31,414 nucleotides of DNA, from IMG/VR virus record IMGVR_UViG_3300008114_000189, positions 1-31,414 of that record. One strand, written 5' to 3'. Source of the DNA: a virus. This document shows, piece by piece, positions 6,419-30,782 of this stretch (position 1 is its first letter; the number at the start of each line of letters is the position of its first letter). Under the pieces are notes generated by a model. That model ran no database searches. It saw only the letters and a list, made by a program, of their open reading frames with translations, and was not told the origin of the DNA. Made by a program: the position numbers and the translations under genes.

Positions 6419-6697
6419 TTAATTAGCTTCCATTGTTACTGATAAACCAGCATTTTGTAGTTTATCTTTCATATCAGAGATAGTCTCATAGTCTCCATAT
6501 TTAACATCACAAACACCATTATGATGAACTATAAAAGCACATTGGTTAGCTTGTTCATATTCATGTTTACATACTTTCATTAGGCAAGTGATTACCCAAT
6601 CAAAAGAATTAAAATCGTCATTGTGAAGATCTAAACGATATGGTTTGGATAAAATCTCTTCTACTTTTGACTCTACTTGTTCTTTAGTTTTTGCCAT
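6419..6697 (-). CDS. clpS: ClpS-like N-degron adaptor of the Clp protease, 92 aa
   Basis: ClpS delivers proteins with N-terminal Phe, Leu, Trp or Tyr to ClpAP/ClpCP and, in E. coli, holds back degradation of SsrA-tagged proteins. The product has the family core: YRLDLHNDDF (residues 20-29) with the NDD motif at 26-28 that binds the substrate alpha-amino group, the FIVHHNG segment with His58 at the place of E. coli His66, and CDVKYGDYE followed by the ending AGLSVTMEA. Phe32 replaces the E. coli gatekeeper Met40; as I recall, Bacteroidota ClpS also has Phe there, so it fits acquisition from such a host. It lies downstream of a HAD gene on the minus strand. Confidence 0.9.
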   Translation of the reverse strand: MAKTKEQVESKVEEILSKPYRLDLHNDDFNSFDWVITCLMKVCKHEYEQANQCAFIVHHNGVCDVKYGDYETISDMKDKLQNAGLSVTMEAN

Positions 6698-8279: not shown

Positions 8280-8894
8280 ATGAAACATATTAGAACTTTT
8301 GAATCTTATAAAACAGAAAAGGTTAAATTAAAATCAATTAATAAATCTGCTTTTGTAGAAGCTATTAAAGAATCAGTTTTACAAGTTGGTGATATTTATA
8401 AAGTTAGATCTATGGTTGATATTCCACAATCTTTGATTAACTCTTACGTTAAGAAGGTTAAAGATTCTACTGGTAAAAATCTTCGTCAATTTTTTGGAGA
8501 TGTTGAAATCGCTGAAGAATTATTAAAATATATTACTATTAGTGGTTTAGATTTGGAAAAAATTCCAGGAAACGCTTTGATGGGTGGTGCTCAAGGACAG
8601 ACTCAAGGTCAAGGACAAGGACAGGCTCAGGGTCAAGGACAAGGACAGGCTCAGGGTCAAGGACAAGGACAGGTACAAGTAGATACTCAAGCCGAAGGTC
8701 AAGGACAAACTCAAGGACAAGGACAAGATCAAGGACAATTTGAAGAACCTCAAGGACAAGCTCAGGGTCAAGGACAAGGACAAGCTCAGGGTCAAGGACA
8801 AGGACAAGCTCAGGGTCAGGGTCAAGGACAAACTCAGGGTCAAGGACAAGCTCAAGAAGAAGGAGAAGAAGGAGAAGAAGAACTTCCATTATAA
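8280..8894 (+). CDS. Protein with Gln/Gly tandem-repeat tail, 204 aa
   Basis: Residues 1-102 form a helical, charged domain beginning MKHIRTFESYK; residues about 103-196 are almost only Gln, Gly and Ala in 8-residue units such as GQGQGQAQ; the end is acidic (EEGEEGEEELPL). The start motif recurs in genes at 9220, 10388 and 27258. The tail is surely disordered and highly soluble. The function is unknown; its class of late promoter, shared with capsid genes, suggests a virion or assembly protein. Open frames on the opposite strand across the repeat are consequences of the repeat. Confidence 0.75.
   Translation: MKHIRTFESYKTEKVKLKSINKSAFVEAIKESVLQVGDIYKVRSMVDIPQSLINSYVKKVKDSTGKNLRQFFGDVEIAEELLKYITISGLDLEKIPGNALMGGAQGQTQGQGQGQAQGQGQGQAQGQGQGQVQVDTQAEGQGQTQGQGQDQGQFEEPQGQAQGQGQGQAQGQGQGQAQGQGQGQTQGQGQAQEEGEEGEEELPL
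8587..8850 (+). repeat. Coding tandem repeats, about 24-nt unit
   Basis: Units such as GGTCAAGGACAAGGACAGG plus CTCAG repeat with few changes, encoding Gly-Gln-rich 8-mers. A non-repeat interruption near 8671-8760 (VDTQAEG, FEEPQ) splits the array. Copy number probably varies by slippage. Confidence 0.85.
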
Positions 8895-20758: not shown

Positions 20759-22663
20759 TTAAAATTTTAAAAAATCGATTTGTTTCTTTTCTAAATCAAC
20801 TGACTTAACAACAACCTTTATTGGATCACCTAATCTAACTTTATCACCTAAATCACTAACAGCATAGTAATTATCTGGATAAGCCATCCATTTTCCTTCT
20901 AAACTACTTAGTTTTATTAAACCTTCACATTTACTTTCAAACAATTCTACATAGATTCCTCTATCTAATACACCTGAAACAATTCCATCAAAAACTTGAC
21001 CAATTCTGTCTCCTAAGTATTCAGCTTGTTTATACTTAATAGAATCTCTTTGAGCTTTTGCTGATACTACTTCTTGTTTAGATATCCACTCACATTGTTT
21101 TTCTAATTCGTTTGGTTTAACATCTTTACTATATCCCTCACTTTTCAATGCCATTGATAATAATCTATGTGTCAACATATCACTATATCTTCTAATCGGA
21201 CTTGTGAAGTGTGAATAGTGTTCAAATCCCAAACCATAATGACCAATGTTTCTAGTTGTATATTTAGCCTTTTGCTGAGCTCTAACTATTAAAGTTGTAA
21301 TGATGTTTTCCTCACTAGTTCCTTTGCAACTTTTCATTAGTTCATTTATAACTAATTTAGTCTTCTCAGGTGTATCACCGTAATTTACTTCATATCCTAA
21401 AGTTGATATGAATGTTTTAATATGTTCTAATTTAGTTTCATCCGGTTCTTCGTGAATTCTATTAACACAAGGTAACCCTCTAGACTTAATAAACTTAGCA
21501 ACTTCTCTATTCGCTAATAACATATATTCTTCTATTAAGTGATTAGCTTCTTTTTGTTCTTTTAAATAAAGTCCAATTGGTTTTTTATTATCATCAGCTA
21601 ATTTGAATTTAACTTCAACACCACCAATTTCCATGGAACCTCCTAACATTCTTCTTCTTCTCATTTTTAAAGCTAATCTGTGTAATTCTAAAATAACCTC
21701 ATCACAATCTTTATTTTCTTCTGATGCTGTTCCTCTGTCGATAACTTCTTGAGCCATTTCATAAGAATAGTCTTTATTTACGTTTACAATAGTTCTACCA
21801 AACCAAGTGTTTTCAATTCTACCATTTGTATCTAATTCAACTATAACAGAGTAACATAGTTTATCACTACCTGATTTTAAAGAACATATACCATTACTCA
21901 ATCTTTTTGGTATCATTGGCACACATCTATCAACTAAATAAACAGAAGATGATCTTTTATAAGCTTCTTCATCTAAGGCACTTCCTGGTTTTATATAGTG
22001 TGTAACATCTGCGATATTTATAGAAACATATCTTTTACCATCTTTAAATTCTAATCCGATTGTATCATCAGCATCTTTTGAATCAAACGGATCGATACCG
22101 ATTGTAGTTATATTTCTCAAATCTCTTCTTTTAGATATCTCTTTCTCAGTAATAACTTCTGATATTAACTCTGATTCATTTAAAACTTCTTGTGGGAAAT
22201 CCACTGGTAAGTTATATTCATACATAATAGCGTTCATTTCGGTTTCATTCTCACCAACAGTTCCTAAAATTTTAACAATTTTAGCATTTGGTGATTTTTG
22301 ACCGTTTTCCCAACTATCAAATTTAACAAGTACTTTTTGATTATCTTCTGCTGAGTGTTTACCTTTTATATAAAAGTCAACGTGTATTTTTGAGTTATCT
22401 GGTATAACAAATGTGTGATCTTTTTTAACTTGAGTAGTTCCTACAAATTCTAATTTAAATCTTTCAACTACCTCTATTACTTTTGCTTCTAATTTTTTTT
22501 CTCCTTTAAAGAGAACAAATCTTACTTTATCTAAGTGTAGTGAATTTAACGTTCTCTTTTTATGTACGAAAAATTCTTTTCCATCAACTTTGACAGTTGC
22601 ATTTCCGCTAACGGAGAATTCTATTTGAGATTCAAGAATATCTCCTTCATTGTATTTAGCCAT
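20759..22663 (-). CDS. rnr: RNase R/RNase II-family 3'-5' exoribonuclease, 634 aa
   Basis: These enzymes degrade RNA one nucleotide at a time; RNase R can unwind structure and clears non-stop mRNA during trans-translation. Two cold-shock-like domains (about 1-135) precede the RNB domain with GIDPFDSKDADDTI, where Asp191, Asp197, Asp199 and Asp200 keep the exact spacing of the E. coli RNase R site (272, 278, 280, 281). HFTSPIRRYSD near 487-497 completes the core, and an S1 domain spans about 555-634. It is shorter than bacterial RNase R (about 700-810 aa), lacking the N-terminal helix-turn-helix and Lys-rich tail. The fold is certain; R versus II is my judgement. Confidence 0.93.
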   Translation of the reverse strand: MAKYNEGDILESQIEFSVSGNATVKVDGKEFFVHKKRTLNSLHLDKVRFVLFKGEKKLEAKVIEVVERFKLEFVGTTQVKKDHTFVIPDNSKIHVDFYIKGKHSAEDNQKVLVKFDSWENGQKSPNAKIVKILGTVGENETEMNAIMYEYNLPVDFPQEVLNESELISEVITEKEISKRRDLRNITTIGIDPFDSKDADDTIGLEFKDGKRYVSINIADVTHYIKPGSALDEEAYKRSSSVYLVDRCVPMIPKRLSNGICSLKSGSDKLCYSVIVELDTNGRIENTWFGRTIVNVNKDYSYEMAQEVIDRGTASEENKDCDEVILELHRLALKMRRRRMLGGSMEIGGVEVKFKLADDNKKPIGLYLKEQKEANHLIEEYMLLANREVAKFIKSRGLPCVNRIHEEPDETKLEHIKTFISTLGYEVNYGDTPEKTKLVINELMKSCKGTSEENIITTLIVRAQQKAKYTTRNIGHYGLGFEHYSHFTSPIRRYSDMLTHRLLSMALKSEGYSKDVKPNELEKQCEWISKQEVVSAKAQRDSIKYKQAEYLGDRIGQVFDGIVSGVLDRGIYVELFESKCEGLIKLSSLEGKWMAYPDNYYAVSDLGDKVRLGDPIKVVVKSVDLEKKQIDFLKF

Positions 22664-23054
22664 CTTTATTTATTTTATTCTTTTTTGATATATTATCTAC
22701 ACCGTATTTTTCAACTAAGGTATTTTTCATTTTAGATAATACTTTTTTATTTTGTATAGGATAATCAACACCAAAGTTTTTTCTTAGTGTTTCTTTTCTT
22801 TTTATTTCTGAACATTTTCTACAAAAATAGTCTCCCCAATTCTTATTGTCGTATTTAAGATAGTTTTTATATATAACCTGTTTTTCTATACCACAACTAT
22901 CACATTGGCACTTTATTTTATGATGGGAACCTTTCGAAAGTAATTCTACTGGTATGGTAATAACCTCACCCAATCCTATATCATATCCTAAGTCTTCATA
23001 GTAATGAAAATTGGACTCACTAATCTTTACATCTATTTCTCTAGTTAGAATCAT
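22656..23054 (-). CDS. Truncated homing-endonuclease-like protein with YGV repeats, 132 aa
   Basis: A four-Cys zinc site (CQCDSC and CRKC) is followed by two copies of a motif T/L-R/V-x-K-F/Y-G-V-D (NFGVDYPIQNKKV and KYGVDNISKKNK). The same zinc finger plus TxxxKYGVxNxxQ repeats occurs at the N-terminus of longer phage endonuclease-like proteins, where more repeats and a nuclease part follow; here the protein ends soon after. It overlaps RNase R by eight bases. The ATG at 23054 is preferred because a TATATTTATATAAA promoter-like stretch lies directly upstream; another ATG exists at 23087. Confidence 0.6.
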   Translation of the reverse strand: MILTREIDVKISESNFHYYEDLGYDIGLGEVITIPVELLSKGSHHKIKCQCDSCGIEKQVIYKNYLKYDNKNWGDYFCRKCSEIKRKETLRKNFGVDYPIQNKKVLSKMKNTLVEKYGVDNISKKNKINKDG

Positions 23055-23103
23055 TTTATATAAATATACATGTATTTTATTTTTCATTTTGAAAATGTTT
23101 TAA

Positions 23104-23115
23104 AAATCATGATTT
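23104..23115. other. 12-bp palindrome AAATCATGATTT
   Basis: A perfect palindrome in the 144-base divergent region between the zinc-finger gene and the protease-scaffold gene. It could be an operator; no other copy was noticed. Confidence 0.3.
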
Positions 23116-23190
23116 AAAAAGCCTTTTGGTATTTATAAAATTTAGTTACTGTAAAAAATCCATATAGAAAAAAGAGGAGTTTGATAAGGC

Positions 23191-23199
23191 AATATATAC
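23191..23199 (+). promoter_or_regulatory. Late-type box AATATATAC before the protease-scaffold gene
   Basis: It is preceded by TAGAAAAAAGAGGAG and followed by ACTATAATTTATAC and a 32-base A-rich leader to ATG 23232. Confidence 0.6.
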
Positions 23200-23231
23200 A
23201 CTATAATTTATACAAAAAATAACTATTTTAC

Positions 23232-25340
23232 ATGAAACCAGTCTTAATTGTAGAAAATTCAACTAATTCTCTTATTGTTGAGAATAATTCGGTGAGTAAA
23301 GATAAGTATGTATTAGGTGGTATATTTACAGAATTCGGTGTTAAAAACCGTAATGAAAGAATTTATACAGCTGAAAAATTCTTACCAGCTCTACAAGAAC
23401 TTAACGAAAGGATGAATGGGTTAGGTGCTGTGTATGGTGAATTTGACCATCCAGACGTATTTGACACATCTCTTTCAAGGGCTTCACACATAATTACTAA
23501 AGCTAACTATGTTAAAGAGGCTAATAATGTCACTGGTGAAATCAGATTATTAAGTACTTATTGGGGTAAAGAAGCTAAGGCATTGGTCGATGACGGATGT
23601 CCTGTTTTTGTTTCTTCTAGAGCCGCAGGTATTACTGAGTCTGACGGATCAGTTTCGTTAAAGAAATTATTTACTTATGATATAGTTGCTGATCCAGGTT
23701 TTGCTTCAGCTAAAATGAGTGTTAAAACACTTAATGAATCACTAGGTTATGATAATCCACAATCCAACTTTAGGATATATGAAATGTCCGATGAGTCAAA
23801 AATAAATGATCTATTTAACATGAACAAAAATGAGTTTGTTACTAAGCAACAATTAACTGATTACTCTAAGTATTTAGTTAATGAATTAGCTTCTACAAAG
23901 AAAGAAGTTAAGAATGCTATTTCTAAAGGTAACTTAAGCCCTAAGAAATTAGAACAACTACTTGAGTATTATGATGAATTAAACACTACTAATTCTCAAG
24001 TTGTTAAGTATTTAGATTATTTAGCTGAAAAAGTTCAAATTATGGTTAATGAGAACAAGTCGTTAAAAGAAACAACTGACAAACTTATTAAACACAATGA
24101 CTATTTAGCTGAAAATCTAGAAAAAGCTGTTAATTACTCTGAGTATTTAGCTGAGAATTTAGATAAGAATATCGCTTATTCTGAATACGTTGCTGAAAAC
24201 TTAGATAAAAACATCGCTTACTCTGAGTATATCGCTGAAAACTTAGATAAGAATATCTCTTATTCTGAGTATATCGCTGAAAACTTAGATAAAAACATCG
24301 CTTACTCTGAGTATATCGCTGAGAATTTAGATAAGAATATCGCTTACTCTGAATACATCGCTGAAAACTTAGATAAAAACATCGCTTACTCTGAATATAT
24401 CGCTGAGCACGTTGATAATTCAATTGCTTACTCTGAGTATTTAGCTGAGCACGTAGAAGGTAATATCGCTTATTCAGAATATATCGCTGAACACTTAGAT
24501 GATAATATCGCTTACTCTGAATATATCGCTGAGAACTTAGACAAATCAATCTCTTACGCTGGGATGATTGCTGAGAAATTAAACGGTGGTAAATTATTCG
24601 AATCTGCTGAAGAAGCTTTCCCAACATTAAACGCTGCTGGTTTTTCTTCTTTAGAAGATGAGGATGAAGAAGAAGCTTGGGGTTCTGAAGAAGAAAACGA
24701 AGATGAAGAAGAATACAATGGTATTTCTCACGTAGGTTCTGAAGAGGCTTATGCACACGAAGAAGATGAAGAAGATGATGAAGAATGTGGACCAATGGAC
24801 TATGAAGTTTCTGGTGACAATGATTCTGAATTATCTGAATCTATTAATAAATTAATCGAAGAGGCTAAAAAACGTAAAGTTTCCGAGACATCAGATTTGA
24901 ATTTCTTAAAATTCTTATCTAAATCACAAGTTGATAGTTACTATGCTTTAACTAATGAAGAACAAGAAACTGTTAAACTTCACATAAACGAAAGAAGTTA
25001 CTTCACACAAAAAGAAGTTCTTTCATTAATTTCTGAAGCATTATCAACTAAAAATGAAACTCTAGAAGAAAGAGTTATCAGAATGATGCCTGAAAACACT
25101 AAGGCTATCTGGAATCAGTTAAATGAATCAGCTAAAAAATCTATGTTATCACAAGCTAGATTATACCCAGCTGAAATGTTAACAACTGAGTCACAAATTG
25201 AGCATTTCTGGGCAACTAGAAATCTTAAAACAAATGAATCTGTAACTAAAAAATTAGTTTCACATGATGCTTTAATTCAAGAAGATAAATTATCTGACAA
25301 TGATGTAAATGCTATTATGGAAAGATTCAAAAACATCTAA
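23232..25340 (+). CDS. 21: Prohead protease-scaffold fusion (gp21 + gp22), 702 aa
   Basis: Residues 1-185 form the prohead serine protease: GGIFTEFGVKNRNERIY, VYGEFDHP (His73) and CPVFVSSRAAG (Ser129) match the T4 gp21 active-site regions. Residues about 190-290 are helical. Residues 291-444 are eleven 14-residue units of the type YIAENLDKNIAYSE plus a partial twelfth (MIAEKLNGG), then a strongly acidic stretch (about 470-530) and a helical C-terminal scaffold (to FKNI). T4 makes protease and scaffold separately. Each repeat holds [ILV]AE, the T4-type cleavage consensus, so the scaffold could be shredded by its own protease domain during maturation. Confidence 0.9.
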   Translation: MKPVLIVENSTNSLIVENNSVSKDKYVLGGIFTEFGVKNRNERIYTAEKFLPALQELNERMNGLGAVYGEFDHPDVFDTSLSRASHIITKANYVKEANNVTGEIRLLSTYWGKEAKALVDDGCPVFVSSRAAGITESDGSVSLKKLFTYDIVADPGFASAKMSVKTLNESLGYDNPQSNFRIYEMSDESKINDLFNMNKNEFVTKQQLTDYSKYLVNELASTKKEVKNAISKGNLSPKKLEQLLEYYDELNTTNSQVVKYLDYLAEKVQIMVNENKSLKETTDKLIKHNDYLAENLEKAVNYSEYLAENLDKNIAYSEYVAENLDKNIAYSEYIAENLDKNISYSEYIAENLDKNIAYSEYIAENLDKNIAYSEYIAENLDKNIAYSEYIAEHVDNSIAYSEYLAEHVEGNIAYSEYIAEHLDDNIAYSEYIAENLDKSISYAGMIAEKLNGGKLFESAEEAFPTLNAAGFSSLEDEDEEEAWGSEEENEDEEEYNGISHVGSEEAYAHEEDEEDDEECGPMDYEVSGDNDSELSESINKLIEEAKKRKVSETSDLNFLKFLSKSQVDSYYALTNEEQETVKLHINERSYFTQKEVLSLISEALSTKNETLEERVIRMMPENTKAIWNQLNESAKKSMLSQARLYPAEMLTTESQIEHFWATRNLKTNESVTKKLVSHDALIQEDKLSDNDVNAIMERFKNI
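24102..24590 (+). repeat. 42-nt coding tandem repeat array, 11.6 copies
   Basis: Units encode YIAENLDKNIAYSE with small changes at positions 2, 5, 6, 8 and 9. Synonymous differences between units (for example AACTTAGATAAAAAC versus AATTTAGATAAGAAT) alternate, showing an older array rather than a recent expansion or assembly artefact. Confidence 0.9.
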
Positions 25341-25384
25341 TCTATAAAAAATCCACACTTGAAAAAAACGAGTAAAATTAAGGT

Positions 25385-25393
25385 AATATATAG
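25385..25393 (+). promoter_or_regulatory. Late-type box AATATATAG before the capsid gene
   Basis: It is preceded by ACTTGAAAAAAACGAG and followed by ATTATAAAAAAAATAAAAA and a 33-base A-rich leader to ATG 25427, the most A-rich leader in the window. Confidence 0.6.
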
Positions 25394-25426
25394 ATTATAA
25401 AAAAAATAAAAAAAAATAAATTAATT

Positions 25427-27178
25427 ATGTCACACATTAGAATAGACAAAGCGAAAGCAACTAAGAAATGGGCTCCGGTTCTTGAGAACATGGGAGTTAC
25501 AGGTGATAGAGTTGAATGGATGGCGGAATACGCTGAGTTTCACTCAATCAATGAAAATGCATATGTAAATGCTTCTAACGTAGCAGGTATGGGTGCTGTT
25601 TTAAATCCAGTTATTGGTTCAAATACACCTTCAGGTGTTACAGTTGGTGCAAACTGGGGTGGTGTTGCTGGTTCAGGAGACGTTGGTCAAAACCTTTTAC
25701 CAGTAGCTATGAAAATCGCTGCTCAAACAATCGGTTTAGATTTAGTAGCTGTTAAACCTTCTCCAGGTCCGAAAATTGATTTACTTTATATTGATTTCCA
25801 ATATGATGATACAAGATTAGGCGCATCTGATGAGAGACCACAAGTTTTCAAATTAAACTTAGACTCTACTACATTAGGAAATGTTACTACAACATTAAAC
25901 ACTAAATTATCTGGATATAACATTACTCAAACAAGTGGTGGTCTTCAAGGTGGTAGAGTATGGGTTACTTTAGGTACTGCATCTAACACAGCAGGATCTG
26001 AAGCACCAGTAGGTGGTGAGTTTACTCAAACTGAGCCTTCAAACAAAGCTGCTTACGCTGAGTTCTTAGGTTTCTCTCGTATCGATGGTTACCCAATCTT
26101 CAGAGCTTACAGACAAGCTAACACATCTCACACAGGTGTAAACCAATTTACAACTGCTTGGGCTTTTGACTCTACAAGAAATACATTCTCAGCTACGGCT
26201 TCTATGTCATCTCAAATCGTTCTTGTTGGTACTCACTCTGTATCAGGTGCAAGTACAAAAACTGTTGAATTAGTATCTGCATTAGAAGATCATATCCCTG
26301 GTTTCTCTGCAAACTGGACAGGTGTTGCTACTTCTAACGCTGCTGGTTCTTACCCAATGGGTAGAGATGCTGACGATGACTCTTACGCTGGTGTTATCGG
26401 ACCAAAAATTTCTTCTAAAACTATCGCAGTTGGTACTATTGAAGTATCTTCAGCTTTAAGAAGAACAGAAATTGAAGATATTAAAGCTAACACAGGTATG
26501 GATATCGTTCAAAAAATGGAATCTATCCTTGTTAACGAGTTATCTCAAACAATTTCTAAACAAATCGTTGCTAAAATCTTTGAGATGGGTGCGTTAAACA
26601 GAACATCAGCTCCATTAAATACTTCTTTATCAAGTACTTTAATTACTGGTTCTGCTTCAACAATCTTTGACTTAAACACAGCTTATGCTAGTGCTGCTGT
26701 AACAGGTGAAACTACACACGCTGTTCAAAGAAAGTTAATCACTAAGATTGCTCACGCTTCTAACTACATCGCAACTGAAGGTCGTGTAGGTCCAGCTCAA
26801 TACTTAATCACAAACGGGGGATTAGCTGCAGCTTTACAAGATATCGCTGGTTACACTATTAACCCAGTTAAATCTAAATTAAACGGACAAGGTCAATTAT
26901 ATCCTGTTGGTTCAATTGGTGATATTTCTATCTATGTTGATCCATACATGAAATATAACGACAACAGAATCGTTTTAGGTAGAAAAAACAATCCTGATCA
27001 ACCAGGTATCATCTTCGTACCTTACTTAATGGCTCAATCTATCTCAGTTATTTCTGAAGCGACTTTCGCTCCAAGAATGTTACTAAGATCTAGATACGCA
27101 GTAGCTGAAGTTGGTTGGTTCCCACAAAAACAATTTATGACTATCGTTGTAACTGATAGAAATCAATTACTTAACTAA
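25427..27178 (+). CDS. 23: Major capsid protein gp23-like, 583 aa
   Basis: This forms the hexamers of the head shell. The order of features agrees with gp23: an N-terminal prohead propeptide (SHIRIDKAKATKKWAPVLENM), WMAEYAEFHSINENAY containing possible protease sites, NVAGMGAVLNPVIG, the LLPVAMKIAAQTIGLDLVAVKPSPGP segment, and a C-terminal part with IGDISIYVDPYM and MLLRSRYAVAEVGWFP. T4 gp23 is 521 aa. Codon use differs from neighbours, with more C-ending codons (AAC, ATC, TAC), as expected for the most highly expressed gene. It lies directly downstream of the protease-scaffold gene and ends at a terminator. Confidence 0.96.
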   Translation: MSHIRIDKAKATKKWAPVLENMGVTGDRVEWMAEYAEFHSINENAYVNASNVAGMGAVLNPVIGSNTPSGVTVGANWGGVAGSGDVGQNLLPVAMKIAAQTIGLDLVAVKPSPGPKIDLLYIDFQYDDTRLGASDERPQVFKLNLDSTTLGNVTTTLNTKLSGYNITQTSGGLQGGRVWVTLGTASNTAGSEAPVGGEFTQTEPSNKAAYAEFLGFSRIDGYPIFRAYRQANTSHTGVNQFTTAWAFDSTRNTFSATASMSSQIVLVGTHSVSGASTKTVELVSALEDHIPGFSANWTGVATSNAAGSYPMGRDADDDSYAGVIGPKISSKTIAVGTIEVSSALRRTEIEDIKANTGMDIVQKMESILVNELSQTISKQIVAKIFEMGALNRTSAPLNTSLSSTLITGSASTIFDLNTAYASAAVTGETTHAVQRKLITKIAHASNYIATEGRVGPAQYLITNGGLAAALQDIAGYTINPVKSKLNGQGQLYPVGSIGDISIYVDPYMKYNDNRIVLGRKNNPDQPGIIFVPYLMAQSISVISEATFAPRMLLRSRYAVAEVGWFPQKQFMTIVVTDRNQLLN

Positions 27179-27194
27179 TAGTTAATAAAGATAT

Positions 27195-27224
27195 AAAAAA
27201 CTCTCCTGATGGAGAGTTTTTTTT
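27195..27224 (+). terminator. Rho-independent terminator after the capsid gene
   Basis: AAAAAACTCTCC / GGAGAGTTTTTTTT stem with a TGAT loop. Confidence 0.9.
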
Positions 27225-27245
27225 GTTTATACATTTTTCAATTTT

Positions 27246-27254
27246 AATATATAA
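27246..27254 (+). promoter_or_regulatory. Late-type box AATATATAA, 3 nt before ATG
   Basis: The box follows the capsid terminator and is followed by ACT and the ATG at 27258. Confidence 0.6.
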
Positions 27255-27257
27255 ACT

Positions 27258-27872
27258 ATGAGAATTAAAAGATTTAAAACGTTTAAAGTATATGAGACAT
27301 CTACAAGCACTCCAAAAAGTGATTTAGAACAATTCAAATTGGATGGTTATGATATAAAACATAAAAAAATATCAGATTCGAATAATCCAGAAAATGTATA
27401 TGATGTCTATTGGGGTAGAAATGCTAAAAGTAATGATTTTCTAACCACTATGTATTCCGGTAAATTTGCTAACCCAATCGGTGGTTCAGAGCCTAGTAAA
27501 AATGATATTTGGATGCACGCTACAAGTATAAAAAATCCTGATCACTATTATAAAACTAATGGTGAAGAAGTTACTGGTGATAGAATTATTGGAACTCATC
27601 TTATAATTAAAACATTAAAAGATGATATTATACCAGAGAATGTTATTCTACAAGCTGCTGACATAGTTAAAAAAAACAGTCATTTAGAAAAGATGGAAAG
27701 TAATGAAAAAAAGAAATATTCTTTAAATGACCTTTCAAATTGTGATATAGTTGTTTGTACAAAAGATTATGTTAGTAAAAAACAAGGATCTGTAACTGGT
27801 CAAGTGCAGGTAGATCATACAAATAGTAGGTATGTTAGATATTCTAAAGGTAGAGTTGAAATAACTCATTAA
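27258..27872 (+). CDS. Hypothetical protein with RFKTF-type N-terminal motif, 204 aa
   Basis: Not recognised. The start MRIKRFKTFKVYETSTST resembles the basic-aromatic starts of the genes at 8280, 9220 and 10388 and is followed by a Ser/Thr linker, as if a detachable leader. The body is mixed alpha/beta, with YDVYWGRNAKSNDFLTT near 49-65, NDIWMHATS near 87-95 and a long central strand-helix part (GTHLIIKTLKDDIIPENVIL). No metal site or membrane helix is visible. It has its own near-leaderless late box and precedes the peptidase gene by 37 bases. Confidence 0.65.
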   Translation: MRIKRFKTFKVYETSTSTPKSDLEQFKLDGYDIKHKKISDSNNPENVYDVYWGRNAKSNDFLTTMYSGKFANPIGGSEPSKNDIWMHATSIKNPDHYYKTNGEEVTGDRIIGTHLIIKTLKDDIIPENVILQAADIVKKNSHLEKMESNEKKKYSLNDLSNCDIVVCTKDYVSKKQGSVTGQVQVDHTNSRYVRYSKGRVEITH

Positions 27873-27880
27873 TTGAATTT

Positions 27881-27889
27881 AATATATAC
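27881..27889 (+). promoter_or_regulatory. Late-type box AATATATAC before the peptidase gene
   Basis: It is followed by an A-rich leader of 20 bases to the ATG at 27910. Confidence 0.55.
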
Positions 27890-27909
27890 AAAAAAAGAAA
27901 TTTTAAAAG

Positions 27910-29754
27910 ATGGCGGGAGAACCAACAAACTTACCAAAAATAAAATTATCAAAAGCTTTAATAGATGTATTAGAAAAGCTTAATGATATGAATGAATATA
28001 TTGCTTTTGAAATATTATGTTTAGATGATGAAGATACAGAATATTTCAATGGATTGAAAATAACAAATGTTGATGTTTCTGATAAAGATTTTCATTTTAA
28101 AGTAACAACAAAAGATAAAGGAACAGTTGATATGAAATGTGGTAACTTTATTAGATATTATTTTCATAATTATTTTACATCAGAAGATATTCAAAACTTT
28201 GTTACTTTGTATAATAAAGTTAAAAAAGGAGAATCTGTTGAAGATGAAAAAATTCCAATTAAGGTTCCTACATTTGAATATAATCCATTAGATCCAAGAT
28301 CTACATTCCTTTCATTAGTTACTAAAACTTATCCACATGGACATGAAGATGAAGTTCTTCAATTCCTACCTGAATTAAGTAAAGATATTGTTGGTAACTA
28401 TTATAAAATAATTGGTGACAATCCAACAACTATGTTTACTTGTCACTTAGATACAGCCGATAGAAAACAAGCTGTTACAAGACTTTTTTCTGTTCAAATT
28501 GATGAACAAGAACACATCGTAACTGATGGAACAACAGTATTAGGTGCTGATGATAAAGCAGGAACAACTGTTATGTTATATATGATGGCTAAAAATGTAC
28601 CAGGTCTTTATTACTTCTTTATCGGAGAAGAAAGAGGTGGTATTGGTTCTAGAGCTTTAGCTGATAAATATGATGAAGTTAGTTATTTGAAAAATATTAA
28701 AAGATGTGTTTCTTTTGATAGAAGAAAAACAATTTCTGTTATTACCGCACAAGCTGGTGGTAGATGTTGTTCTGATGAATTTGGTAACGCACTTTGTGAA
28801 CAATATAACGCAAGTGGATTGAATTTGAAAATTGACCCTACTGGTGTATTCACCGATTCAGCTTCATTTATAGATGATATTCCTGAATGTACAAACGTTT
28901 CAGTTGGTTATTTAAATGAGCATACTGGTAAAGAAATTCAAAATATGGATTACTTAATAGATTTATGTAAAGCTTCTGTTAATGTAGATTGGGCTAACTT
29001 ACCAGTTGTGAGAACTATTCAAGATAGAGCGGCTATTAAACAGATGATATCTAATGTTAAAACATCAAATAAAGAATTTGTCGATGCTTTAAAAGGAGTT
29101 AATTTAGATAAAACTATTTCAACTGATCACGGTAATGTTTATGTAAACTTTGATTTAGAAAATGAAGATATTGATACCATTTTAGAAAGTTTAAAAGAAC
29201 TTAGAAATGTTATGAAACTTCACAAAAGACCAACTTCTTGTTTATTTGATGAGACATATTTACAAATTATATTGGGTAAAGATAGTTCATCTAAGACTAA
29301 TAGAACTTATAATGATCCTTATGAGTCAAATAAATTGAAGAAATATGACCAATTCTTAAATGAAGAGTGGGATAGATGGGATGATGAAGAGGAAGAGGAT
29401 TATGATCAATATGAAGATGATGACGATAATAACACTGATGATATTGATAATCTTAAATATCTTTTGAGAAAAATGATTACTCAAGCTGGTATCAAAAACT
29501 GTGAAGTAACAAATACTGGTATGAATTTAAAAGTTCAAATTATACCAACAACATACGGAATGGTTAATTATTTTTATAAACTTGATGAAGTTATTCATAT
29601 CTATGAAGTTATAAAGAAAATTGATAAAGATGTCTTAATTGATTTTGATTTGGAATGTGATATATGGGAAACAAGAAAAGTAGAACCACTATTTATATTC
29701 AACTTCTACTCAATGGATGATGGTGATATGCCAGATGATACTGATGTATTCTAA
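27910..29754 (+). CDS. Zinc metallopeptidase of the M20/M28/M42 clan, 614 aa
   Basis: The catalytic domain (about 100-370) has the full metal set of the dinuclear aminopeptidase clan: CHLDTA (His179, Asp181), LGADDKAG (Asp214 bridging), GEERGG (Glu240 general base, Glu241 ligand), SFDRR and NEHTGKE (His338). M20/M42 enzymes trim or hydrolyse short peptides; such a gene is uncommon in phages. An N-terminal domain (1-100), an acidic linker (about 480-510) and a C-terminal domain (about 515-614) are not recognised. It lies 110 bases upstream of the tmRNA, separated by a terminator. Cytosolic location is likely, as no signal peptide is present. Confidence 0.85.
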   Translation: MAGEPTNLPKIKLSKALIDVLEKLNDMNEYIAFEILCLDDEDTEYFNGLKITNVDVSDKDFHFKVTTKDKGTVDMKCGNFIRYYFHNYFTSEDIQNFVTLYNKVKKGESVEDEKIPIKVPTFEYNPLDPRSTFLSLVTKTYPHGHEDEVLQFLPELSKDIVGNYYKIIGDNPTTMFTCHLDTADRKQAVTRLFSVQIDEQEHIVTDGTTVLGADDKAGTTVMLYMMAKNVPGLYYFFIGEERGGIGSRALADKYDEVSYLKNIKRCVSFDRRKTISVITAQAGGRCCSDEFGNALCEQYNASGLNLKIDPTGVFTDSASFIDDIPECTNVSVGYLNEHTGKEIQNMDYLIDLCKASVNVDWANLPVVRTIQDRAAIKQMISNVKTSNKEFVDALKGVNLDKTISTDHGNVYVNFDLENEDIDTILESLKELRNVMKLHKRPTSCLFDETYLQIILGKDSSSKTNRTYNDPYESNKLKKYDQFLNEEWDRWDDEEEEDYDQYEDDDDNNTDDIDNLKYLLRKMITQAGIKNCEVTNTGMNLKVQIIPTTYGMVNYFYKLDEVIHIYEVIKKIDKDVLIDFDLECDIWETRKVEPLFIFNFYSMDDGDMPDDTDVF

Positions 29755-29760
29755 AATATT

Positions 29761-29790
29761 AAATAACTCACTTTGGTGAGTTATTTTTTT
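29761..29790 (+). terminator. Rho-independent terminator after the peptidase gene
   Basis: AAATAACTCACTTTGGTGAGTTATTTTTTTT: AATAACTCAC pairs with GTGAGTTATT around a TTTG loop, followed by eight T. Confidence 0.85.
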
Positions 29791-29809
29791 TAATAAAATT
29801 TTCAACTTT

Positions 29810-29841
29810 TTTGTATATTTAAAATATTATATATACATTTG
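29810..29841 (+). promoter_or_regulatory. Host-type (Bacteroidota sigma-A) promoter of the tmRNA
   Basis: TTTG at 29810-29813 and TACATTTG at 29834-29841 are 20 bases apart, a near-perfect match to the Bacteroidota promoter consensus (TTTG, 19-20 bases, TAnnTTTG). Transcription would start around 29845-29848, about 17 bases before the mature tmRNA 5' end. The tmRNA is thus probably made by unmodified host polymerase, early in infection. An overlapping TTATATATAC (29828-29836) could also act as a late box. Confidence 0.75.
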
Positions 29842-29863
29842 TAGAAATAATTACAAACAATAT

Positions 29864-30230
29864 GGGGAAGTCATTAGATTCGCCTAGCAGATTGGTGGTG
29901 ATTATGCAGGTATCGGGTTGTCGAATGTCCGATTTATAAATTAATCGATAACTGTCGTAAATGGCAACACAAATGAAGTAGGATCTCGTGAAGATTTAGT
30001 AGCGACCCTAAAAGCAATTGGAGTTAACACTCCAGAGTTAGTTTAAGAGAAACTAATCGAAAAAATTCTCCAACTGTATCACACAGACCAAATGTGAAAC
30101 CAGAATTGTTAGAGTGATGGGTCAGTTCAACTAACTATTTTGTAAGTTTAGAAAAACTCTACTAAACCTGTGAAGATTAATTGTTGTCATCTGAGTAGTA
30201 CACCCGGGGCGGTACCGGGTCTTCTCCACA
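29864..30230 (+). ncRNA. ssrA: tmRNA (SsrA), phage-encoded
   Basis: tmRNA with SmpB frees stalled ribosomes and adds a tag. The ends form the acceptor stem GGGGAAG (29864-29870) / CTTCTCC (30221-30227) with a G3-U70 pair and discriminator A, the alanine identity; CCA is not fully encoded. GATTCG follows as in other tmRNAs. Pseudoknot 1 is clear: ATCGG (29912) pairs with CCGAT (29929) and GTTGTCGA (29917) with TCGATAAC (29945). The tag probably begins at GGC 29963 (GNTNEV...) and ends ...NTPELV at TAA 30044-30046, inside hairpin TTAGTTT/AAACTAA. The tag is long (27 codons) and lacks LAA; the T loop lacks TTCRA. Confidence 0.92.
29963..30046 (+). other. tmRNA tag-peptide frame, 27 codons
   Basis: Frame from GGC at 29963 to TAA at 30044-30046. 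The first residues (GNTN) resemble Bacteroidota tags, which begin like GENN or GETN; the rest (SREDLVATLKAIGVNTPELV) is unlike normal tags. The resume codon is inferred from its distance to pseudoknot 1 and could be GTA at 29957. Confidence 0.7.
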
Positions 30231-30235
30231 AATTA

Positions 30236-30262
30236 AAACCCCACAACATTGTGGGGTTTTTT
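30236..30262 (+). terminator. Rho-independent terminator after the tmRNA
   Basis: AAAACCCCACAA / TTGTGGGGTTTTTT stem with a two-base loop starts a few bases after the tmRNA 3' end. Confidence 0.9.
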
Positions 30263-30275
30263 CATATAAAATACT

Positions 30276-30782
30276 ATGAGTTATATAAATAGATTTGATG
30301 GTAGATGGAATTTTCTATCCAATTTCTATCCAGTTGAAATAGAACATCAAGGAATTAAATATCCAAGTGTAGAACATTTCTATGTAGCACAAAAATGTAA
30401 AAATGATCAAATGATAAATGGTATTTATTACACACCTGCTGACTTTAAAGAAATGATTGCGAAAACACCAAGTCCAGGTCACGTTAAAAAACTTGGTCAA
30501 AAGTTAAAAGTTCGTAGTGATTGGGATGAAAAGAAATTAGAGTTCATGAATTGGGGTGTTAGAGAAAAATTCAAAAATGATAATTTATCAGAACTTCTAT
30601 TAAACACAGAAGATCTTCAGCTAATCGAAGGTAATTATTGGCACGACAATTTTTATGGGTCATGTTATTGTGAAAAGTGTGGAAATAAAGGTAAAAATCA
30701 TCTTGGTAAAATACTTATGAAAGTTCGTGATGAACTAAGAGGAATTGAAAAGAAAACTGGTTTAGAACAATTTTTTAAATAG
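30276..30782 (+). CDS. NADAR-domain (YbiA-like) protein, 168 aa
   Basis: The pattern of the NADAR family is present in order: FLSNFYPVEIEHQGIKYPSVEHFYVAQK (about residues 13-40), AKTPSPGHVKKLGQK (about 62-76), RSDWDEKKLEFMNWGVREKF (about 79-98) and LLLNTEDLQLIEG then WHDNFYGSC (about 105-129). A CYCEKCGNKGKNHLG insert near 129-143 could hold zinc and occurs in a subset of the family. NADAR proteins act on ADP-ribose derivatives, and some remove ADP-ribose from guanine bases in DNA. In a phage this suggests countering host ADP-ribosylation defence. It overlaps the convergent GIY-YIG gene by eight bases. Confidence 0.88.
   Translation: MSYINRFDGRWNFLSNFYPVEIEHQGIKYPSVEHFYVAQKCKNDQMINGIYYTPADFKEMIAKTPSPGHVKKLGQKLKVRSDWDEKKLEFMNWGVREKFKNDNLSELLLNTEDLQLIEGNYWHDNFYGSCYCEKCGNKGKNHLGKILMKVRDELRGIEKKTGLEQFFK

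Follow-up and report, generated by a model that had tools for sequence, protein, structure and literature searches.

The 31,414-base stretch of DNA analysed here (hereafter the window), a fragment held in IMG/VR as virus record IMGVR_UViG_3300008114_000189 and carrying the T4-type head genes for terminase, portal gp20, and capsid gp23, encodes a transfer-messenger RNA (tmRNA). The most unusual parts of this RNA, absent from an earlier note on the sequence, are an extended peptide tag lacking the terminal AA and a remodelled T arm. We favor, with a probability of roughly 0.55, the reading that these phages own a line of trans-translation in which the tag has gained a recognition element and the degron for the host ClpX has been weakened. 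The capsid protein of the window shares 73% identity with its counterparts in LR745206.1 (634,780 bp) and LR756502.1 (642,428 bp), and 50% with those in LR756504.1 (636,363 bp) and LR756501.1 (735,411 bp). According to the available portion of Al-Shayeb 2020 (PMC7162821), genomes above 634 kb belong to the Mahaphage clade, with Bacteroidetes as predicted hosts.

Extended Tag of the Window Family

Relatives were compared through a panel of 82 capsid-linked loci, from which 65 tmRNA sequences with both ends gave 50 distinct ones. In the window, the tag reading frame (29963-30046, + strand) encodes GNTNEVGSREDLVATLKAIGVNTPELV followed by a stop, starting at a putative resume codon. Counted from this presumed codon, which specifies Gly in 49 of the 50 distinct sequences, the frame stays open for 27-30 codons in all 50, and the other two frames close within 8 codons, except in two sequences where one frame runs for 20. 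Upstream of the tag, the codons examined (up to 12 per sequence) contained no ATG in frame, and GTG was present in 2/50. The tag core ED[LIV]V is conserved, with E10, D11, V13, and L16 invariant among 36 distinct tags. Of the 50 tags, 27 terminate in V and 23 in A, and none of them ends in AA. The tags of tmRNAs typically, though not by definition, have about 10 residues and an AA end; the accessible part of a 2025 report on a database of 97,179 tmRNA sequences gives 10 as the commonest tag length (PMC11915505).

Scanning viral contigs with the tag core yielded 88 stretches, and all 80 of those examined lie within this tmRNA, giving 38 distinct tags, one of them cut short. A tblastn search of 50,697 phage records with the window-type tag matched only LR745206 and LR756502. 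Run against eight records, the tag profile hit nothing except the tmRNA itself, which it recovered in LR745206, in LR756502, and in G003 (a 385-kb contig that is itself a fragment); thus, no phage protein resembling the tag turned up.

Identity, Structure, and Expression of the tmRNA

The mature RNA extends from 29864 to 30228 (+), with A as discriminator and the CCA not encoded (ACAA is found instead). On the window, ARAGORN called no tmRNA, and Rfam reported none at the gathering threshold nor at E ≤ 5. These misses, together with a single-sequence fold that was no better than shuffles (z −0.84), would fit some other structured RNA or a small-peptide gene, an explanation that we regard as very improbable; it is contradicted by family members scoring over the Rfam threshold, by covariation, by a G3-U70 acceptor in 50/50 sequences, and by a tag frame without a start codon. 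The single-sequence fold was accordingly discarded as evidence for a tmRNA, and only the comparative test set the RNA apart.

A nucleotide search with the window RNA gave matches in LR745206 and LR756502, and tmRNA homologues occur in 67 of the 82 capsid-linked loci. Compared with their relatives, 14 of the 15 loci without one stop short of its expected place; the other, L040, extends 1.2 kb beyond the peptidase gene and was not counted as judgeable, so that a tmRNA was seen at every judgeable locus. The RNA alignment left out L015 (5′ half missing) and L038 and L070 (contig ends). At around position 15019 of L015, the tmRNA copy without its 5′ half has promoter-like sequence fused to the tag region, by either a real deletion or an assembly fault. 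Two loci with the same tag core, L159 and L212, retain a canonical T arm (TTCRA); their RF00023 scores of 52.0 and 49.4 bits exceed the threshold of 47, and ARAGORN calls both. Another family member, L081, reaches 39.3 bits, below the threshold. In total, ARAGORN called 0 of the 82 capsid-linked loci and 2 of the 80 tag-core loci. The window-family profile also matched the tmRNAs of LR756501 (E 9e-10) and L333 (8e-15), and it gave no match to those of LR756504, LR756500, or Lak-B5. A Group I intron (RF00028, 96.1 bits) adjoins the 3′ end of the tmRNA match in LR756501.1 (L107 160-391, − strand); introns in the T loop are known from bacterial tmRNA genes, as noted in the accessible part of PMC11915505.

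The drawn structure, comprising the acceptor, P2, pseudoknots 1 and 2 (PK1 and PK2), further helices, and the T arm, is paired in 90.9% of cells across the 50 distinct sequences, with changes on both sides at 50 of 71 pairs. Its covariation score was 0.397, compared with 0.186 when shuffled (0 of 500 shuffles reached 0.397) and at most 0.121 when slid, an advantage over the slid versions being expected as the structure was partly read from the same sequences. The acceptor is paired at 7/7 positions, with G3-U70 and discriminator A, in 50/50 sequences when counted from raw ends; these counts were used because misalignment of a few rows at the 5′ end of the covariation alignment makes its acceptor counts slightly low. 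The end-finding step required the acceptor pattern, and no locus with both ends failed it. PK1 (29912-29952, +) sits just 5′ of the tag, with its stem at 29912-29916/29929-29933 paired in 100% of cells and its second helix at 29917-29924/29945-29952 paired in 76.9%, where 5/7 pairs have changed on both sides; by these covariation counts, both P2 and PK1 lie upstream of the resume codon. The two helices of PK2 (30074-30097, +) are paired in 83.3% and 94.5% of cells, with compensatory changes.

The T arm (30202-30220, +) has a 6-bp stem and the loop GGCGGTA instead of TTCRA; it is paired in 97.3% of cells, and all six pairs have changed on both sides somewhere. The canonical TTCRA loop, again typical and not defining, is present in 0/50 window-clade tmRNAs, a GCRGW loop in 41/50, and a 6-bp stem with a 7-nt loop in 41/50. 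The loss of the canonical T arm is probably the reason why ARAGORN and Rfam miss the window clade. The homologues, the covariation, the acceptor, PK1, and the two members over the Rfam threshold identify the window RNA, by comparison of sequences, as a genuine tmRNA in spite of those misses, and in this the earlier note, which had named a tmRNA here, was right. Compared with the standard one-piece bacterial tmRNA (RF00023), it has in common the G3-U70 acceptor, the long P2, PK1 before the resume codon, the start-less tag frame, and SmpB in relatives; it differs in its tag of 27-30 residues without AA and, mostly, in the 6-bp T stem with a GCRGW loop.

Upstream of the gene, the motif TTG-N20-TACATTTG (29811-29841, +) resembles TTG-N18-23-TAnnTTTG, which we take to be the Bacteroidetes promoter consensus. 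This pattern occurs within 100 nt upstream of the tmRNA in 26 of 51 distinct regions, whereas 100 dinucleotide shuffles averaged 0.64 and never exceeded 3. A terminator-like hairpin with a T run, read by eye, follows at 30239-30262 (+). The promoter motif suggests that the tmRNA is expressed, and the G3-U70 acceptor that it is charged with alanine. As for the charging enzyme, a phage alanyl-tRNA synthetase was considered and rejected, as none was found in LR756502 or G003 and only a partial catalytic domain in LR745206. The latter is a 248-residue open reading frame (ORF) of LR745206.1 (L086 1540-2286) that could bear on tmRNA charging.

Tag Classes in Other Phages

A pattern taken from the conserved 3′ region of the window family retrieved 42 IMG/VR stretches, a set biased toward relatives by the origin of the pattern and containing several near-duplicates. 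Their tags have 23-31 residues in 37 stretches and 14 residues in 5. ARAGORN reported a tag of at least 23 residues in 13, a 14-residue tag in 5, and no tmRNA in 16; the tags of these 16 and of 8 stretches with shorter calls were read by pattern or by eye (L479 by eye). Sorted by eye, the 37 extended tags comprise an FED-like class (18, e.g., AVELSTMTFEDVMSFVGADYAVAA), a group like GKTNVWEAINSFGAPVSQVEFAVAA (8), an ED[MI]MSIPTS class (4), the window type (4), and three others. Tags of the ED[MI]MSIPTS class end in ELV in L468, L481, and L485 and in AIAA in L491, and the LR756501 tag read by eye, GDYKMNAEDMMSIPTSLTGKVATESFVEDLVLA, shares their core and ends in LVLA; in these tags, therefore, the core persists whether or not the AA end is present. 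Other phage tags are DNVNSFEQSILNELFAPVEMAVAA in LR756504 and DDEIEFRMAA in Lak-B5 (both by eye) and GNNAEMRMAA in LR756500 (ARAGORN). The FED tag had no tblastn match in the 50,697 phage records. In L328, a phage tmRNA with the tag ANVDYSTEYYAVAA is followed, some 0.6 kb downstream, by a GOLLD RNA (RF02032, 281.8 bits; 1372-1790).

Control loci were fetched with the canonical T-arm pattern and their tags taken from ARAGORN, all counts being among the matches listed. Among the bacterial matches listed, 80 loci gave 24 tags, 22 of them with 8-12 residues and 22 ending in AA; the outliers were one 17-residue tag and one of 33 residues ending in ALS (L349), which is doubted. A further 38 bacterial loci among the matches listed gave eight more tags, of 10-13 residues and all ending in AA. 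For IMG/VR, the matches listed gave 19 tags in 80 loci, 15 with at most 12 residues and 17 with an AA end, the longest having 25 residues and an LAA end (L306), and another 40 loci among the matches listed gave 11 tags, including those of L328 and L333, with nine ending in AA.

Host ClpXP or some other host protease could treat the extended tag as an ordinary degron, the extra residues being a tolerated insertion and the phage tmRNA topping up the host rescue pool. We give this about one chance in four. All 50 window-family tags end in V or A, and AA is still the end of 26 of the 37 extended phage tags. Because tags with related ends, for example LVA or AAV, are broken down in E. coli, the phage tags may still be recognized by host ClpXP, which also counts against the reading that we favor. 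On the other side, the inserted core is more conserved than the tag end, and the EDMMSIPTS core has been retained where the AA end was lost. The putative role of the tag as an address for a different reader is deduced from the invariance of its core, its lack of AA, and the existence of parallel tag classes.

SmpB, Clp Proteins, and RNase R in Relatives

SmpB, which was sought beyond the window in related genomes, is encoded in 6 of 10 records (LR745206, LR756502, LR756504, LR756501, Lak-B5, and G003), including all four of the largest complete relatives, elsewhere in the genome, and co-occurs with the tmRNA in six of the seven panel records with a weak or strong tmRNA match. Among 26 further IMG/VR contigs (25 with a tmRNA of the window kind and L028, chosen by its capsid), SmpB was found in seven, including all five of at least 298 kb, three of which have one tag in common and probably represent a single phage in several versions. 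A thioredoxin-like ORF, recognized by eye, lies shortly upstream of smpB, with the same neighbors, in L083 (523-843), L084 (568-888), and L085 (607-933). Like the identity of the tmRNA, the assignment of SmpB in relatives is grounded in sequence evidence.

A survey of Clp and RNase R genes covered eight records. RNase R was found in three (LR745206, LR756502, and LR756504), in two of which it is distant from the tmRNA; ClpS in four (the same three and G003); and ClpP in five (the same three, LR756500, and Lak-B5), with 2-3 matches each and S/H/D triads visible by eye in all seven that were translated. A Clp-type AAA ATPase with a ClpB_D2-small domain is present in 6/8 records. In LR745206, LR756502, G003, and LR756504, this protein is large and has two domains and a VGF loop, identified by eye; the VGF loop is the motif by which ClpC docks to ClpP. 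The LR756501 ATPase is without VGF by eye, in line with the lack of a ClpP match in that genome. Clp_N is the domain bound by ClpS; when four of the ATPases were compared with Pfam, it was among the families listed only for the LR756501 protein, and it was absent among those listed for the ClpC-type proteins of LR745206 and G003. In LR756504 and Lak-B5, two phages with AA-ending tags, smaller ClpX-like proteins were recognized by eye. Phage Lon was considered as a tag reader and rejected, as it was found in 0/8 records.

The full set of tmRNA, SmpB, RNase R, ClpS, ClpP, and ClpC-type ATPase is present in LR745206, LR756502, and LR756504. The earlier note had proposed a phage-borne ribosome-rescue and turnover set and had suggested checking related phages for co-occurrence of its genes beyond chance. 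Such a set does exist, with SmpB in 6/10 records and all components in three genomes, but the co-occurrence of the genes (RNase R 3/8, ClpS 4/8, ClpP 5/8) may go no further than shared ancestry, which the three full-set genomes have in common. These frequencies, and the remoteness of RNase R from the tmRNA in two of the three genomes that encode it, would fit huge genomes that simply gathered translation and proteolysis genes singly, as a set without joint function. We consider this quite unlikely, given SmpB with the tmRNA in six of seven records and a tmRNA in every judgeable locus.

Another explanation is that the tag is not a degradation signal and that the phage tmRNA outcompetes the host tmRNA for stalled complexes, rescuing ribosomes and sparing or redirecting the products. 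The loss of AA in all 50 tags and the phage SmpB in relatives are consistent with it. However, the tag is long and conserved where a short one would suffice, and ClpS, ClpP, and ClpC-type genes occur in the same genomes; this explanation thus appears improbable, if less so than piecemeal gathering.

Proposed Mechanism

According to the favored reading of a phage-owned trans-translation line, the phage tmRNA, with its host-type promoter motif and alanine-type acceptor, would free stalled ribosomes in a Bacteroidetes host, in partnership with the phage SmpB encoded in relatives, and would append a tag of 27-30 residues in place of the usual ~10. The ED[LIV]V element would most likely recruit an adaptor or unfoldase, plausibly the phage ClpC-type ATPase with phage ClpP, and, with the tag end weakened, host ClpXP on its own would probably degrade the product poorly. 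By homology, RNase R might clear the stalled mRNA and ClpS might redirect host Clp. The present-day forms suggest a likely descent from a short tag ending in AA, through a long tag ending in AVAA, to a long tag without AA. A stronger version, which we put forward only tentatively, is a fully orthogonal phage line, with a remodelled tmRNA and SmpB and with a ClpC-type unfoldase and ClpP that read the ED-core tag; rescue would be kept, the fate of the product would be taken from host ClpXP, and several unrelated tag classes in other phages would reflect the same switch, made in parallel.

Several further observations weigh against the favored reading. Both the binding of the tag by a reader and the degradation of tagged products are predictions from sequence. 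The ratio of nonsynonymous to synonymous polymorphism (pN/pS) of the tag, 0.59 for 29-residue tags (27 distinct) and 0.49 for 27-residue tags (12 distinct) versus 0.68-1.03 in shifted frames, is only moderately low and is confounded by RNA structure. ARAGORN gives tags shorter than our reading in 8/42 stretches and tags of 15 residues in L159 and L212, and one helix of the drawn structure (columns 274-278 with 305-309) is paired in only 60% of cells. An amphipathic helix in the tag was tried as a candidate feature and was unsupported (mean z −0.4 over 36 tags). Among the genomes, LR756501 combines a long tag with the lack of any match to ClpP, ClpS, or RNase R, G003, a fragment, has no ClpP match, and the Clp gene survey comprises eight records, with the FED-type phages outside it.

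Other Genes of the Window

The other three elements of the earlier note, an RNase R-like enzyme, ClpS, and an M20/M42-type peptidase, were located, like the tmRNA, where it had placed them, and their family assignments were upheld. The RNase R-like exoribonuclease (20759-22663, −) has RNB (329.9 bits), CSD2, and S1 domains in Pfam and homologues in 65/82 loci. It scores 583.8 bits on the NCBIfam RNase_R model, just below the equivalog cut-off of 597.85, and passes the VacB/RNase II superfamily cut-off (442.9 vs 368.6), for which reason it is named RNase R-like. The motif DPxDxxDxDD is present in 33 of the 36 sequences checked (of 49 distinct), with a variant in three. The adaptor at 6419-6697 (−) matches PF02617 with 64.6 bits (cut-off 23) and is called ClpS-like because the NCBIfam ClpS equivalog cut-offs were not reached.

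The M20/M42-type metallopeptidase (27910-29754, +), upstream of the tmRNA, has homologues in 76/82 loci and belongs with PHROG 4191, annotated as peptidase (E 6e-64); its ORF had no match in Pfam. An AlphaFold model built from the window sequence and 26 of 53 other distinct peptidases (predicted local distance difference test 74, predicted template modelling score 0.55) matches M42/M20 aminopeptidases in the PDB, including TET and PepT, with a best E of 6e-9 and a template modelling score of ~0.5 by target length. HxD, DD, EE, D, and H, the metal-ligand pattern of M20/M42 enzymes, are invariant in 27/27 sequences. The tie of the peptidase to tagged products is one of neighborhood only. The co-operation of tmRNA, RNase R, ClpS, and peptidase, as the earlier note envisaged it, is plausible.

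Directly 3′ of the tmRNA lies a NADAR-domain gene (30276-30782, +; PF08719, 93.8 bits), with homologues in 60/82 loci. NADAR proteins are linked to the reversal of ADP-ribosylation, so this may be a counter-defense gene. An ORF at 8280-8894 (+) has a tail formed by a long Q/G-rich repeat.

Relation to Known Systems and Significance

Phage tmRNA and SmpB have already been reported, as both are named among the translation genes of huge phages in the available text of Al-Shayeb 2020 (PMC7162821). That text concerns the same genomes and, as far as it extends, mentions neither an extended tag nor a changed T arm and draws no connection to phage Clp genes. The marine phage Melnitz likewise carries an ssrA gene, for which selective tagging of host proteins was proposed (PMC9004378); its tmRNA is of the two-piece, permuted alphaproteobacterial type, and the accessible part of that paper describes no extended tag. 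Our literature search found no paper on extended phage tmRNA tags. A changed tag reader has precedents in two systems described in the available part of PMC9382460. The SsrA tag of the mollicute Mesoplasma florum is also longer with a changed end, and is tied there to a different protease, Lon; unlike the phage tags, it is cellular and ends in NYAFA, whereas the phages have an ED core and Lon in 0/8 records. The engineered DAS+4 tag combines a weak ClpX end with an added element, so that degradation needs the adaptor SspB; it is artificial, and the reader of the phage tag is only proposed.

Since ARAGORN and the Rfam model miss most members of this clade, surveys of phage ssrA with such tools undercount. 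Both the length of the tag and its AA end can vary among tmRNAs. If the favored reading is true, new SsrA tags, perhaps together with readers for them, would have arisen several times in phages; such tags would be natural orthogonal degradation tags and would offer a direct test of how a phage benefits from owning ribosome rescue.

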